Part shown: piece by piece, positions 6,405-57,528 of the stretch
Layout of the letters: each line of letters begins with the position of its first letter
How positions within the stretch are numbered: the stretch's first letter is position 1
Assembly (NCBI GenBank): GCA_019636735.1
Contig: JAHBWY010000002.1
Location: 310,001 to 374,000, forward strand
Length of the DNA: 64,000 nt
Reading direction: 5' to 3'
Source: Phycisphaeraceae bacterium
GTDB lineage: Bacteria; Planctomycetota; Phycisphaerae; Phycisphaerales; SM1A02
Translations under genes and position numbers: made by a program
The notes under the pieces: generated by a model
The model's input: only the letters and a program-made list of their open reading frames with translations
What the model was told of the DNA's origin: nothing
Database searches by the model: none

Positions 6405-6521
6405 AGTGAGAAGGGCGGAAAGGATAGCGACGACGCGAGCTTCGTGCCGATGGCGGATCCTGAAAGGGCGTGAGGTCTGGCCCGGCGCGCAAGCGATCGG
6501 GTACTTTTCGCCGAGGTTCGC

Positions 6522-6532
6522 AGGAGGTGACC
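6522..6532 (+). promoter_or_regulatory. Strong ribosome-binding site fixing the top6B start
   Basis: AGGAGGTGA followed by two bases and ATG is the strongest Shine-Dalgarno match seen in the window. It fixes the start of top6B and rules out a 21-codon upstream extension. Confidence 0.85.
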
Positions 6533-8743
6533 ATGGGCGGCACGGAGGCGGCACTGCTCGACATGCCACAGGGAAGGTCCGATCGTTCGAAGCGGGAGTC
6601 GAAGCCGAAGGAGAGCAAGGCTCGCCGAGGCGCCAGCGCCGAGGAGATGGCGTCGCGCCAGCGCGACATCTCGGTCAGCGAGTTCTTCGCGAAGAACCGT
6701 CACCTTCTTGGATTCGACAATCCGCGCAAGGCGCTCCTGACCGCGGTGAAGGAGGCGGTCGACAATGCTCTCGACGCCTGTGAGGAGGCGGGCATTCTCC
6801 CGTCGATCGTGGTGGCCATCGAGGATCTCGAGCCCGGTCGTCCGGCGACGGCTCGCAGCGGGCGCTACCGCCTGACAGTCGTCGACAACGGCCCCGGCAT
6901 CGTGCGCAAGCAGGTCGAGAACATCTTCGGTCGCCTGCTCTATGGCTCGAAGTTCCATCGGCTGAAGATGTCGCGCGGGCAGCAGGGGATCGGGATTTCC
7001 GCGGCGGGCATGTATGGCCTCATCACCACGGGGCAGCCCATGGTGATCCACACGAAACCCGGACCCAAGGCGTCAGCCCATCACATCGAGCTGGCGATGA
7101 ACACGAAGACCAATCGAGCCGAGGTGACGGTCGATCGGGTCACCGACGACTTCCCGCCGAAGCGCTTGAGCACGGTCACCGCTGGAGCGAAGGCACTTGC
7201 CCGCTCTGGCACGCTGCTCGAGACGGGGGAGTTCGCCAGCGGCACCAGCGTCTCGATCGAACTCGAGGGGCGCTATCAGCGCGGACGCGGGAGCGTTGAG
7301 GAGTTCCTCGAACTGACCGCGATCGCCAATCCCCACGCGCGGATCGTGCTGATTCCACCAACGCGGGAGAGCGCCGCGGAAGAGGAGGATCTTGAGCCCA
7401 AGCTCCTGAAGGCCGCGCTGACGACACCAGCGGACACGGTGAGCGACGGGGTCGAGGTGCGCACGAGCGAGACGCTCGGCTGCGTGAACTATCCGCGGGC
7501 GGTGAATGAACTTCCCGCTGAGACGCGCGAGATCCAGCCGCATCCGCGCGGCATCGAGCTCGGCACGCTCCTCCAGATGCTCAAGGAGTACGAAGCCACC
7601 ACCAAGGGCTCGCTCTTCACCTTCCTTCAGGAGCGCTTCTGTCGGGTGAGTTCGGCAACGGCGGCGTCGATCTGCTCGGCGGTCGGAGTCACGAGTCGCA
7701 CGCGCATTTCGTCGGTCGATGCGCCGCTCGCCGAGGCGATCTACCGGGCCTTTCAGACGCAGCGTTTCCTGCCGCCACCGACCGATTGCCTCTCGCCGAT
7801 CGGCGTGCGACAGCTTCTCGCGGGCATGTTGAAGGGCGTCCGCGCCGAGTTCTACGCGGCGTCGAGTCGCGACGCCGAGGTCTATCGCGGTCGCCCGTTT
7901 CAGATCGAGGCGGCCATCGCCTTCGGTGGAGAACTCCCCGCCGATGAGAGCGCGCGGGTCATCCGATTTGCGAACCGGGTTCCGCTCCTCTTCCAGCAGA
8001 GCGCATGTTCCAGTTTCCGCGCTGTCGCGGAAACGGGATGGCGCAACTACGGTCTCCAGCAGCCGCGCGGCGGGCTTCCGGTGGGCCCGCTCGTGATCGC
8101 GATTCACATGGCGAGCGTCTGGGTGCCCTTCACCAGCGAGAGCAAGGAAGCCATCGCCGACTACGACGAGATCCGGAAGGAGATGAAGCTGGCTCTGATG
8201 GAGTGCGGCCGCAAGCTCGGGACCTATCTGCGCCGACGCCAGCGCATGGCGCGCGAGGGTGAGCGTCGCGATGTCTTCGAGCGCTACATCGGTGAGATTG
8301 TCCAGGCAGTCCACGCGATCAACGGCACCGATCCGAAGAAGCTCTTCGAGAAGCTCCAGGCGCAGGCCCGCGCACTCACCGCCGTGGCCGATCAGGTGCT
8401 CGACGAAGAGGGCCGGGTCCAGCGCGACGAGGAGGATCTTGACGCGTTGGATGGCGTCATCGTCGTGGCGTCGCCTTCGAGCCAGCCCGTCGTGACCGAC
8501 ACGCCGCCGAGTGGGGGAGCGAACGGAACGAAAGCGGTGAAGGGAACGAAGTCGGCGAAGGGAGCGAAGGTGGCGAAGCGGACGAGTGAGGCGAACGCCG
8601 CAACGGCAAAGGCTGCTGACGCGCCGGCTCGCCAGAGTCGCGGGGCGGCGGCGAAGGCACCGGTCAAGGACTCCACCCCTGCACCTCGCCTGCGCCGCAA
8701 GGCGGCCCGCGACGACGACGAGACGCTCTTCGCCGCGGAGTGA
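6533..8743 (+). CDS. top6B: DNA topoisomerase VI subunit B (GHKL ATPase) with a basic C-terminal tail
   Basis: A 736-residue ATPase subunit of type IIB topoisomerase VI, which opens and closes double-stranded DNA gates with ATP. The GHKL Bergerat fold is clear: KEAVDNALDA (Asn78 for Mg-ATP), VVDNGPGI, and the QQGIGISAAGMYG lid. The transducer domain follows, and EIRKEMKLALMECGRKL marks the late transducer helices. After about residue 655 the sequence changes to a Lys/Ala/Thr/Pro-rich tail of roughly 80 residues with KGTKSAKGAKVAK-type repeats, like a histone H1 tail, ending in an acidic DDDETLFAAE. The top6B-then-top6A order matches archaeal operons. Topoisomerase VI is mainly archaeal and plant, and only scattered in bacteria. 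Confidence 0.95.
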   Translation: MGGTEAALLDMPQGRSDRSKRESKPKESKARRGASAEEMASRQRDISVSEFFAKNRHLLGFDNPRKALLTAVKEAVDNALDACEEAGILPSIVVAIEDLEPGRPATARSGRYRLTVVDNGPGIVRKQVENIFGRLLYGSKFHRLKMSRGQQGIGISAAGMYGLITTGQPMVIHTKPGPKASAHHIELAMNTKTNRAEVTVDRVTDDFPPKRLSTVTAGAKALARSGTLLETGEFASGTSVSIELEGRYQRGRGSVEEFLELTAIANPHARIVLIPPTRESAAEEEDLEPKLLKAALTTPADTVSDGVEVRTSETLGCVNYPRAVNELPAETREIQPHPRGIELGTLLQMLKEYEATTKGSLFTFLQERFCRVSSATAASICSAVGVTSRTRISSVDAPLAEAIYRAFQTQRFLPPPTDCLSPIGVRQLLAGMLKGVRAEFYAASSRDAEVYRGRPFQIEAAIAFGGELPADESARVIRFANRVPLLFQQSACSSFRAVAETGWRNYGLQQPRGGLPVGPLVIAIHMASVWVPFTSESKEAIADYDEIRKEMKLALMECGRKLGTYLRRRQRMAREGERRDVFERYIGEIVQAVHAINGTDPKKLFEKLQAQARALTAVADQVLDEEGRVQRDEEDLDALDGVIVVASPSSQPVVTDTPPSGGANGTKAVKGTKSAKGAKVAKRTSEANAATAKAADAPARQSRGAAAKAPVKDSTPAPRLRRKAARDDDETLFAAE

Positions 8744-8768
8744 GCGATGGCGATCGCGGGAGTGGATA

Positions 8769-8933
8769 GAGCAGGCCTGAAACGAGCAGGCCTGAAACGA
8801 GCAGGCCTGAAACGAGCAGGCCTGAAACGAGCAGGCCTGAAACGAGCAGGCCTGAAACGAGCAGGCCTGGAATGAGCAGTACTGGATTGAGCAGTTCTGG
8901 ATTGAGCAGTTCTGGAACGAACAGAACTGAACT
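8769..8933 (+). repeat. About eleven tandem 15-bp repeats with palindromic core, between top6B and top6A
   Basis: Six perfect copies of GAGCAGGCCTGAAAC (8769-8858) are followed by five drifting copies. The core of the perfect unit, CAGGCCTG, is a palindrome. Copy 8 has CAGTACTG, again a palindrome. Copies 9 and 10 have CAGTTCTG and copy 11 has its exact complement CAGAACTG, so copies 10 and 11 can form an 8-bp stem with a 7-base loop. The array fills most of the 235-bp gap between the two topoisomerase genes. No start codon or conserved peptide supports translation across it. Confidence 0.95.
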
Positions 8934-8978
8934 GAGCGGGATGTGGCAGATCATCGAACCCAACGGCAGGACTCACCC

Positions 8979-10154
8979 ATGGCTCGGCGAACAGTGAAAT
9001 CGGCAGCGACATCACCTCCCGCACGGCGTCGAGGTTCTTCGACCGGCCGACGCTCCGTCGCCGATCGGGATGCCCTGACCGGCGGCAAGATCGAGGCGCT
9101 CGCCAACACCGTGGTCTCGCGCGCCGTTGCCGGGAAGGAGCCGGTCATCGAGGTGCCCTCGCGCACACGCTCCAACACCATCTGGAACAGGAAGCGCGGC
9201 ATTCTCGAGATGGGCGAAGCGACGCAGGAGCGTCAGCTCTTCAACCTGAACCAGGCGAAGCAGTTCATGCAGACCCTGCTGCATGCGAGCACCATCAAGG
9301 ACCTGATTGCCGCGAGCAAGACCTCGAGTCTTCGAGGTGTGTTCTACAAGGCGAAGCACACGGTCGCGGGGACGAAGGAGAACACCTTCGACGAACAGAA
9401 TGAGTCCGACGCGATCCTCGAAGATCTCGAAGTCACCCTCGGGTCGCTGCGGGAGGAGCTCCATGTCTTCGCCGAGAATCGCGGGTCGATGGTCGGCACC
9501 ATCACGCTCGTCGACAAGGGCGACGAGATCGATTGCCGCCGAATGGGCTCAGGCGGCTATGCGCTGCCGAGCATCGTCGAACCCGATGTGATCCAGTTCA
9601 AGAAGTGCGATGCGAAGTTCGTGCTTCATGTCGAGAAGGGCACGGTCTGGAATCGATTCAACGAGGATCGCTTCTGGGAGAAGCACCAGTGCATCCTGAC
9701 TCACGGTGCGGGGCAACCGCCGCGCGGCTGTCGCCGGCTTCTCCAGCGCCTTCACACCGAGCTGGGGCTTCCCATCATCTGCCTGCTCGATTGCGATCCG
9801 TGGGGGCACTACATCTACAGCGTCATCAAGCAGGGGTCGATCTCGCTCGCCTTCGAGTCGTCGAGGTTGGCGATTCCAGCGGCCAAGTTCCTCGGCATTC
9901 GCGCGAAGGACTTCGTCGAGTGCAAGCTCTCCGACGCGGTGAAGATCACGCTGACCGACACGGACATCAAGCGGGCGAAGGAGATCGCGGCCTACCCGTG
10001 GTTCGCCCAGCACCGCGGCTGGCAGCGCGAGATCGACCTCCTCCTGAAGAACGGCTTCAAGATGGAGGTCGAGTCGCTGATTACGAAGGACATTTCCTAT
10101 GTCACCGAGACCTATGTGCCCGAGCGCCTGAAGGCGAAGGACTGGCTCGACTGA
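8979..10154 (+). CDS. top6A: DNA topoisomerase VI subunit A (Spo11-like)
   Basis: A 391-residue DNA-cleaving subunit, related to meiotic Spo11. The catalytic tyrosine is predicted to be Tyr123 in SSLRGVFYKAKHT within the winged-helix domain. The Toprim domain has LLDCDPWGHYIYSVIKQGS, whose acidic pair binds magnesium. The first 35 residues are basic and Ser/Arg-rich, unlike the compact archaeal N-terminus. ATG at 8979 is chosen over an in-frame GTG at 8943 because the shorter form avoids translating into the repeat-flanking DNA and a GGCAGG element lies upstream. It would form an A2B2 tetramer with the upstream gene product. Confidence 0.95.
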   Translation: MARRTVKSAATSPPARRRGSSTGRRSVADRDALTGGKIEALANTVVSRAVAGKEPVIEVPSRTRSNTIWNRKRGILEMGEATQERQLFNLNQAKQFMQTLLHASTIKDLIAASKTSSLRGVFYKAKHTVAGTKENTFDEQNESDAILEDLEVTLGSLREELHVFAENRGSMVGTITLVDKGDEIDCRRMGSGGYALPSIVEPDVIQFKKCDAKFVLHVEKGTVWNRFNEDRFWEKHQCILTHGAGQPPRGCRRLLQRLHTELGLPIICLLDCDPWGHYIYSVIKQGSISLAFESSRLAIPAAKFLGIRAKDFVECKLSDAVKITLTDTDIKRAKEIAAYPWFAQHRGWQREIDLLLKNGFKMEVESLITKDISYVTETYVPERLKAKDWLD

Positions 10155-55369: not shown

Positions 55370-57205
55370 ATGAGACGCAGTCGACGCACAGCCTGGTGGA
55401 TCGTCTACGCGATCGGCAGCGGCGCGGTTCTGGCGGGCCTCGGGTGGATCTCCGTGCAGGTCGCGCGACTCGAACGCGAGGAGGCGATGGCCCGCGCCGA
55501 AGTCGCGCAGCAGGAGACGCTCCGACTGGCGCTATGGCGCATGGATTCATGGATCGCGCCGATTCTTGCGCGCGAGAGCGCACGCACCTGGTTCGAGTAC
55601 CAGTCCTACTACCCGGAGACGCTCGCGCTCAATCGACTTGGCGAGCCGCTGGCCGCCGGTGAAGTGGTGGTGCCGAGTCCGCTGCTCCTCTTTCGCAGCG
55701 AGCTCCTGCCGCTGCATGTGCAATTCACCCATCGCGATGGCTTCACTTCGCCGCAGCTCCCGTCGCCTGAGATCGTGGCGCAGGGGCTGATCGGCTGCGT
55801 CCCGCTTCCGCCCGATCCATCGATGGCCGATCGCTTGCGCGCCTTCGCCATGCAGCATGATGGCACGCTTCTCCTTCTTCAGCTCGAAGACACCGAGACA
55901 CGATTGATGTCGGCGTTCGAGCTGGATGGGGGCGATCCGCGTGCTTCCGGCGGGCATCCGGTGTGGCCCTGGGGCGAGCGGGCGCAGAGCCTGACGGCCG
56001 ATGCCGTGCGTGACTTCCGGGCGAGGCGCGACGCGGCATCGATGGCGGAGTCGGCCTATCGACGCACCCACGGCATGCCGGGCAACGCGCTCACGGCGCA
56101 GCTCTTCGACTCGCACCCGGAGCTGCTCGAGGTGACCGGAGGCATGGCGGACATCGGACCCATGGTGCCGCTCTGGCTCGGCTCGCCGCCGGGGCAGTTG
56201 CTGCTCGCCCGACGGGTCGCCCTTGGCGATCGGATCTGGCTTCAGGGCGCGGTGGTCGATTGGCCCGTGCTGCGGAGGGAGCTTCTTGAGCGCGTGCGTG
56301 ACCTCTATCCGGCGCCGGGCGCGATGCTCGAGCCCGTGGCGATCGGCGATGCTCCGGGCGGAGGGATTCTCGCGAGCCTTCCCGTTCGATTCGTCCCTCC
56401 ACCGAGCCCTGCGCCGGTGCCCGTGGTGGGGCAGGGAGTCGCGATGGGACTGGCCGTCGTCTGGGCTCTCGCGATCAGTGCGATCGGCGCCACGGGACTC
56501 GCCATGCGAGCGACCATTCGTTCGGCGCTTCAGACCAGTCGCTTCGCATCCAGTGTGACCCATGAATTGCGGACGCCCCTGACTACCTTCCGTCTCTACG
56601 CGGAGATGCTTGCCGACGGGATGGTCGATGATCCGGTCCGGTCGCGCGAGTATCTGCGGACGCTGCGTGATGAGTCGACGCGCCTCGGCCTGCTGGTCGA
56701 GAATGTTCTGGCATGGTCGCGTCTCGAAGAGGGGAGAGGAGCCGCCGAGGCGCGCCCAGTACCGGCGAAGGCGCTGCTCGATGACGCCGAGTCGGTGCTG
56801 CGACGCCGCTGCGAGGAGGCGGGAGCCGAACTCGTGACTCGCAGCACCTGTGATGTCCAGGCGCTCGCCGATCCGTCGCGCGTGCGGCAGATTCTCTTCA
56901 ACCTCGTCGACAACGCCTGCAAGTACGCGGGCGAGCATGCGAGGGTCGAGGTGAGCGCTGTCGCCCGCAACGGCAGCGTGGTGCTTTCCGTCGATGATGA
57001 TGGTCCCGGGGTGCCACCGGAACTGCGCGAGCGCGTCTTCCGTGCGTTCGACCGAGGCTCTCTGGGGCCCGGCGATTCGGTGCGAGGTCTGGGACTCGGG
57101 CTTTCGATTTCGCTTGAACTCGCGAACAGCCTCGGCGGTTCGCTGCACTGCGGCGAAAGTGCGATCGGCGGCGCTCGATTCGAGCTGGCGCTGCCGCGCG
57201 GGTGA
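55370..57205 (+). CDS. Membrane sensor histidine kinase
   Basis: A 611-residue kinase. Two membrane spans (about residues 8-30 and 362-384) flank a large extracytoplasmic domain of about 330 residues without a recognised fold. The phosphoacceptor is His398 in SSVTHELRTPLTTF (HisKA). The ATPase has FNLVDNACKYA (N box), DDDGPGVPPEL (G1) and GLGLGLSISLELANSLGG (G2). ATG at 55370 gives the basic MRRSRR start before the membrane segment. Its last six codons and stop are the first bases of the 83-bp repeat. It follows the response regulator gene by 84 bases. Confidence 0.92.
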   Translation: MRRSRRTAWWIVYAIGSGAVLAGLGWISVQVARLEREEAMARAEVAQQETLRLALWRMDSWIAPILARESARTWFEYQSYYPETLALNRLGEPLAAGEVVVPSPLLLFRSELLPLHVQFTHRDGFTSPQLPSPEIVAQGLIGCVPLPPDPSMADRLRAFAMQHDGTLLLLQLEDTETRLMSAFELDGGDPRASGGHPVWPWGERAQSLTADAVRDFRARRDAASMAESAYRRTHGMPGNALTAQLFDSHPELLEVTGGMADIGPMVPLWLGSPPGQLLLARRVALGDRIWLQGAVVDWPVLRRELLERVRDLYPAPGAMLEPVAIGDAPGGGILASLPVRFVPPPSPAPVPVVGQGVAMGLAVVWALAISAIGATGLAMRATIRSALQTSRFASSVTHELRTPLTTFRLYAEMLADGMVDDPVRSREYLRTLRDESTRLGLLVENVLAWSRLEEGRGAAEARPVPAKALLDDAESVLRRRCEEAGAELVTRSTCDVQALADPSRVRQILFNLVDNACKYAGEHARVEVSAVARNGSVVLSVDDDGPGVPPELRERVFRAFDRGSLGPGDSVRGLGLGLSISLELANSLGGSLHCGESAIGGARFELALPRG

Positions 57206-57438
57206 GTGCCGCTGTTGAGTGACGCTCCGGGCTGCGCGATCGCGGGAGCGCGAAGTGTCTGTCGGGAGAGACGCTGCCGCGCGGGTGAGTGCCGTTGTTG
57301 AGTGACGCCCCGGGCTGCGCGATCGCGGGAGCGCGAAGTGTCTGTCGGGAGAGACGCTGCCGCGCGGGTGAGTGCCGTTGTTGAGTGACGCTCCGGGCTG
57401 AGCAATCGCGGGAGCGCGAAGTGTCTGTCGGGAGAGAC
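57190..57438 (+). repeat. Three tandem copies of an 83-bp unit
   Basis: Copies at 57190-57272, 57273-57355 and 57356-57438 are nearly identical: copy 1 and copy 2 differ at two positions, copy 3 at two or three positions from each. Each unit begins GCTGCCGCGCGGGTGAGTG, so copy 1 contains the last codons and stop of the histidine kinase. Within the unit, CGCTCC and GGAGCG form a stem, and GTCTGTC faces GAGAGAC. The unit is not a multiple of three. The array fills the gap before the yifB start and is a recent duplication. Confidence 0.97.
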
Positions 57439-57528
57439 GATTCGTTATGGAGAGGGGATTTTCGGCGGTCGTCAGAAGAGGCGCTTCGTCGGAAAGAAGG
57501 GCGGATCTTCGATGGTTCGCTCCTGTCG

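Follow-up and report, generated by a model that had tools for sequence, protein, structure and literature searches.

A palindromic 15-bp tandem array between the topoisomerase VI genes of a Phycisphaeraceae bacterium, probably a young minisatellite

The topoisomerase VI locus and its spacer array

The window analysed here, a stretch of 64,000 nucleotides from a Phycisphaeraceae bacterium (contig JAHBWY010000002.1), carries on its forward strand the genes for both subunits of DNA topoisomerase VI. The gene for subunit B, top6B, is placed at 6470-8743 as the longest open reading frame, although its true start may lie further downstream; its identity rests on Pfam PF09239 and HATPase and on NCBIfam NF003218 and TIGR01052, above cutoff. 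The C-terminal tail of the encoded protein is of low complexity and rich in Lys and Ala, and the stop codon lies at 8741-8743. The part encoding this tail contains an 18-bp tandem repeat (8519-8578; 3.3 copies, 80%) that is unrelated to the array in the spacer. The gene for subunit A, top6A, present in one copy in the genome and recognised by Pfam and NCBIfam, runs from an ATG at 8979 to 10154. Between the two genes lies a spacer of 235 bp (8744-8978), composed of 70 bp of spacer and a 165-bp array (70 + 11 × 15). A scan of the spacer region for promoters and terminators found none.

The initial annotation described eleven 15-bp units between top6B and top6A, and the array reads exactly so: at 8769-8933, eleven contiguous units stand head-to-tail and in register. 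Units 1-6 (8769-8858, forward strand) are identical, each GAGCAGGCCTGAAAC, and units 7-11 (8859-8933, forward strand) have drifted while keeping their CAG..CTG arms: unit 7 is GAGCAGGCCTGGAAT, unit 8 GAGCAGTACTGGATT, unit 9 GAGCAGTTCTGGATT, unit 10 GAGCAGTTCTGGAAC and unit 11 GAACAGAACTGAACT. Six perfect palindromic units had been counted; six are indeed identical, but unit 7 retains the same palindrome, so that CAGGCCTG is present in seven of the eleven (units 1-7). The later units carry CAGTACTG once, CAGTTCTG twice and CAGAACTG once as their cores. Substitutions in units 7-11 are confined to columns 3, 7, 8, 12, 14 and 15, and CAG (columns 4-6) and CTG (columns 9-11) are constant in 11/11 units. 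Approximately 101 bp of the array is perfectly periodic, and Tandem Repeats Finder (TRF) gives its 7.4-copy core a score of 208. The 15 bp directly 5' of the array (8754-8768, forward strand), which agree with a unit in 9 of 15 bases (chance ~2%), may be a further, degenerate unit.

The spacer also holds two small open reading frames. One, a putative 42-codon frame called mechanically at 8747-8875 on the forward strand, would encode MAIAGVDR(AGLKR)6AGLE and has a GGAG 6 nt upstream; the other, at 8872-8998, is joined to it by an ATGA overlap and itself overlaps the start of top6A.

Distribution of the array among relatives and within the genome

In the single same-genus genome compared (G001; top6A 86% identical), the spacer between the two genes is 70 bp long and free of the array. 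The flanks of the two spacers align only patchily and do not fix the insertion point exactly, and the equality between the 70-bp remainder and the spacer of G001 may be partly coincidence. The unit is found in none of 52 other top6B-top6A spacers from members of the family (median 31 bp). Close relatives thus lack the array, an outcome that the initial annotation had named as contrary to its reading, and its proposal of a binding site or modulator is not supported. When two consecutive units were sought with the core bases left free, 2 of 181 family genomes gave matches: the array's own genome nine times and another once, the isolated match looking like chance. On the sequences compared, the array is lineage-specific.

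Three of the 52 family spacers are at least 150 bp long (L150, L024 and L031). That of L150 is long only through the choice of start codon, with an ATG lying 7 bp past the stop; L024 and L031 are the only others above 125 bp, and both contain unrelated repeats. Because the long spacers come from unrelated repeats, they arise by local duplication and not from one retained element. The L024 spacer (genome G027) holds at 1322-1489 an independent, decayed tandem array of 13-14-bp units, unrelated in sequence and with no 8-bp palindrome by eye. The L031 spacer (genome G029) holds at 1178-1408 two copies of an element of ~95 bp, an unrelated duplication in which each element contains a GCCCGGCA-GGA-TGCCGGGC hairpin.

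The initial annotation had also allowed for a generic repeat scattered through the genome. With up to one mismatch, the unit has no match in its own genome outside 8769-8933; with two mismatches it has six scattered sites, versus nine for a reversed-pattern control. A scan of a genome collection for two units in a row returned 26 matches in unrelated taxa. Two were inspected and neither is the array: a match in Gemmatimonadaceae belongs to an unrelated GAGCAGTGCTGC repeat, and one in Phycisphaeraceae stands alone. We take the remaining matches to be chance.

Tandem arrays as such are plentiful in this genome. A census with TRF of 864 kb of the 3.43-Mb genome, made up of the window and 40 further 20-kb segments, found 74 distinct arrays, 22 of them noncoding, that is, outside our own crude gene calls (332 intergenic gaps longer than 30 bp); by eye, the noncoding arrays share no unit. 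An 8-bp palindrome occurs in 16 of the 74 consensus units, longer units included, and is expected by chance in 2.7% (array composition) to 8.3% (67% GC) of random 15-mers. The spacer array is among the better arrays of the genome and is no outlier in kind.

Several other repeats came to light in this survey. The window itself contains, at 57189-57439 between two forward-strand genes, three copies of an 83-bp unit that are 97% alike. Elsewhere, perfect arrays of the heptamer TCGGTCG lie at C1:67488-67610 (L104, 7488-7610; 17.6 copies) and C1:103935-104030 (L106, 3935-4030; 13.7 copies); these two share a unit but, unlike the 22 noncoding arrays, are genic, and sit between the start codon and the apparent signal peptide in the genes of two paralogues that seem to be secreted. 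As a heptamer does not fill whole codons, changes in copy number would shift the frame, which makes these candidate phase-variable loci. Both are absent from G001. A third copy of the gene start at these loci (MKCLDTRETQ), at C1:107542 (L203), meets a stop after ~11 codons and adjoins sequence for a dockerin-like tail; it resembles a leftover of recombination.

Symmetry of the drifted units

The pairings among later cores named in the initial annotation are found as described, and they had been read there as compensatory change that keeps the fold or dyad. Every core, in 11/11 units, has a perfect complementary partner, an outcome reached in 0.28% of 4000 trials in which the same mutations were re-placed at random; this statistic was framed after the data had been looked at, and the excess is suggestive only. 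Taken separately, the sparing of the arms has a 1.7% chance under random re-placement, and the partnering of all three derived cores, given intact arms, a 5% chance. Permutation of the 15 columns gave arrays that fold as well as the real one or better in 52 of 1000 cases; the palindromic unit is uncommon, not extreme. With the mutation patterns assigned to columns at random, the folding energy was as good as that of the real array or better in 667 of 1500 cases, indicating that drift did not preserve folding energy. The claim of compensatory change is thus partly supported: the partnering of cores exceeds random re-placement, with the post hoc caveat, and folding energy does not. Nor is an excess of palindromic variants over random drift clearly lacking, as might have told against a kept dyad, and this excess has a neutral explanation.

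Origin of the array and comparison with known systems

The array is probably a minisatellite of recent origin that grew within an operon spacer of ~70 bp, and did so in this lineage alone. Replication slippage, perhaps aided by hairpins of the palindromic unit, would have multiplied the unit, the uniform copies at the 5' end being the most recent and the diverged ones at the 3' end the earliest. The symmetry of the drifted units would be explained most simply if inverted repeats served as templates for mutation in one another: homogenisation of the arms could have yielded CAGTACTG, and CAGTTCTG could have become CAGAACTG when the two bases separating CAG from CTG were inverted, the change from TT to AA at this place being an exact spacer inversion. 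Template switching between short inverted repeats, which is known to homogenise arms and invert spacers (PMC8604942; see also PMC3820800 on quasi-palindromes), is the source we infer for the palindromic drift. The array is probably co-transcribed and would add hairpins to the operon mRNA, presumably neutrally. Three considerations count against the minisatellite reading: selection on a dyad would likewise make every core partnered, the RNA of the region has a better fold than its shuffles, as would any tandem palindromic array, and the array is carried by a single genome, too few for a comparison that bears on neutrality.

The hairpins raise the question of function, and the initial annotation had proposed a modulator of the ratio of B to A. 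As an mRNA element, nested 8-bp hairpins, together with a hairpin of units 10 and 11, would protect top6B mRNA or slow both decay and intergenic translation, and so set this ratio. The gene pair lies on one strand, the cores are complementary, and the predicted RNA fold of the region, with nested hairpins, reaches -101.2 kcal/mol versus -80.2 for dinucleotide shuffles (z -4.5); the opposite strand gives z -3.8, and a fold better than shuffles would be expected of any tandem palindromic array. Against this, every relative read lacks the array, folding energy is kept no better than chance, the top6A start is predicted to be equally accessible in both cases (unpaired fraction 0.49 with the array versus 0.52 without, longer contexts being similar), and a search of the region against Rfam gave no match at E up to 1; we consider such an element unlikely. 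The annotation's other proposal, a binding site for a protein or for topoisomerase VI itself, would make the array a set of sites for a dyad-recognising factor, for example in autoregulation. The CAGNNCTG dyad does recur at a fixed 15-bp spacing, but at this distance neighbouring dyads face different sides of the helix, the spacer lacks a promoter-like site, and the unit is found nowhere else in the genome and is absent at this site from relatives whose topoisomerase VI is the same, which makes this reading very unlikely.

Translation of the spacer is a further alternative: ribosomes leaving top6B would re-start at the ATG at 8747 and pass via the ATGA to the frame at 8872-8998, so that coupling to top6A survives the insertion. 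The frames and overlaps are present in the sequence, GGAG precedes the ATG, and a 15-bp unit, as a multiple of three, keeps the frame when copy number changes. However, open frames of this kind often arise by chance in DNA of such GC content, relatives have no counterpart, and the array is known from one genome, so that we hold this account to be highly improbable. An assembly artefact, in which copy number was misjudged across the ~101 bp of perfect periodicity, might be feared in a 33-contig assembly, where assembly from short reads could shorten or lengthen such a run; yet the drifted units 7-11 cannot come from an assembler, and eleven units account exactly for the extra 165 bp, leaving it extremely improbable. 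Also quite unlikely is a recently gained function, in which the palindromic minisatellite would tune expression of both topoisomerase VI subunits through mRNA hairpins or through translation of the spacer, its copy number serving as the dial. Regulatory roles are possible but unsupported: the array is real and ordinary in kind, and no evidence calls for a function.

An array in an operon spacer can thus be strikingly palindromic and yet be a minisatellite of a single lineage. Topoisomerase VI is, to our knowledge, little studied in bacteria, and a search for literature on the enzyme in Planctomycetes, judged by title and abstract, found nothing relevant. If the array varies among strains, it would serve as a natural experiment on the influence of spacer hairpins on the balance of topoisomerase VI subunits in bacteria.

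REP elements occur in many copies dispersed over a genome, and REP hairpins between the genes of an operon can act on mRNA decay or translation. The array resembles REP and BIME elements in being palindromic, in lying between genes of one operon and in its predicted mRNA hairpins, but it is not dispersed, its unit being confined to one locus (all matches with at most one mismatch lie in the array). With iterons and operator arrays it shares regular dyad repeats, but it is not at a detected promoter, is not conserved and comes with no evidence of a binding protein. Membership in a cis-regulatory RNA family finds no basis in Rfam (E up to 1) or in relatives, where the array is missing. The nearest likeness is to bacterial minisatellites or VNTR loci. 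The array, known from one genome of the species, differs from the usual ones in that its unit contains an 8-bp palindrome; like them, it consists of short units in tandem, head-to-tail (within the range of ~10-60 bp), is uniform at one end and diverged at the other, is absent from the close relatives compared, and has a unit unrelated to the other arrays of its genome.
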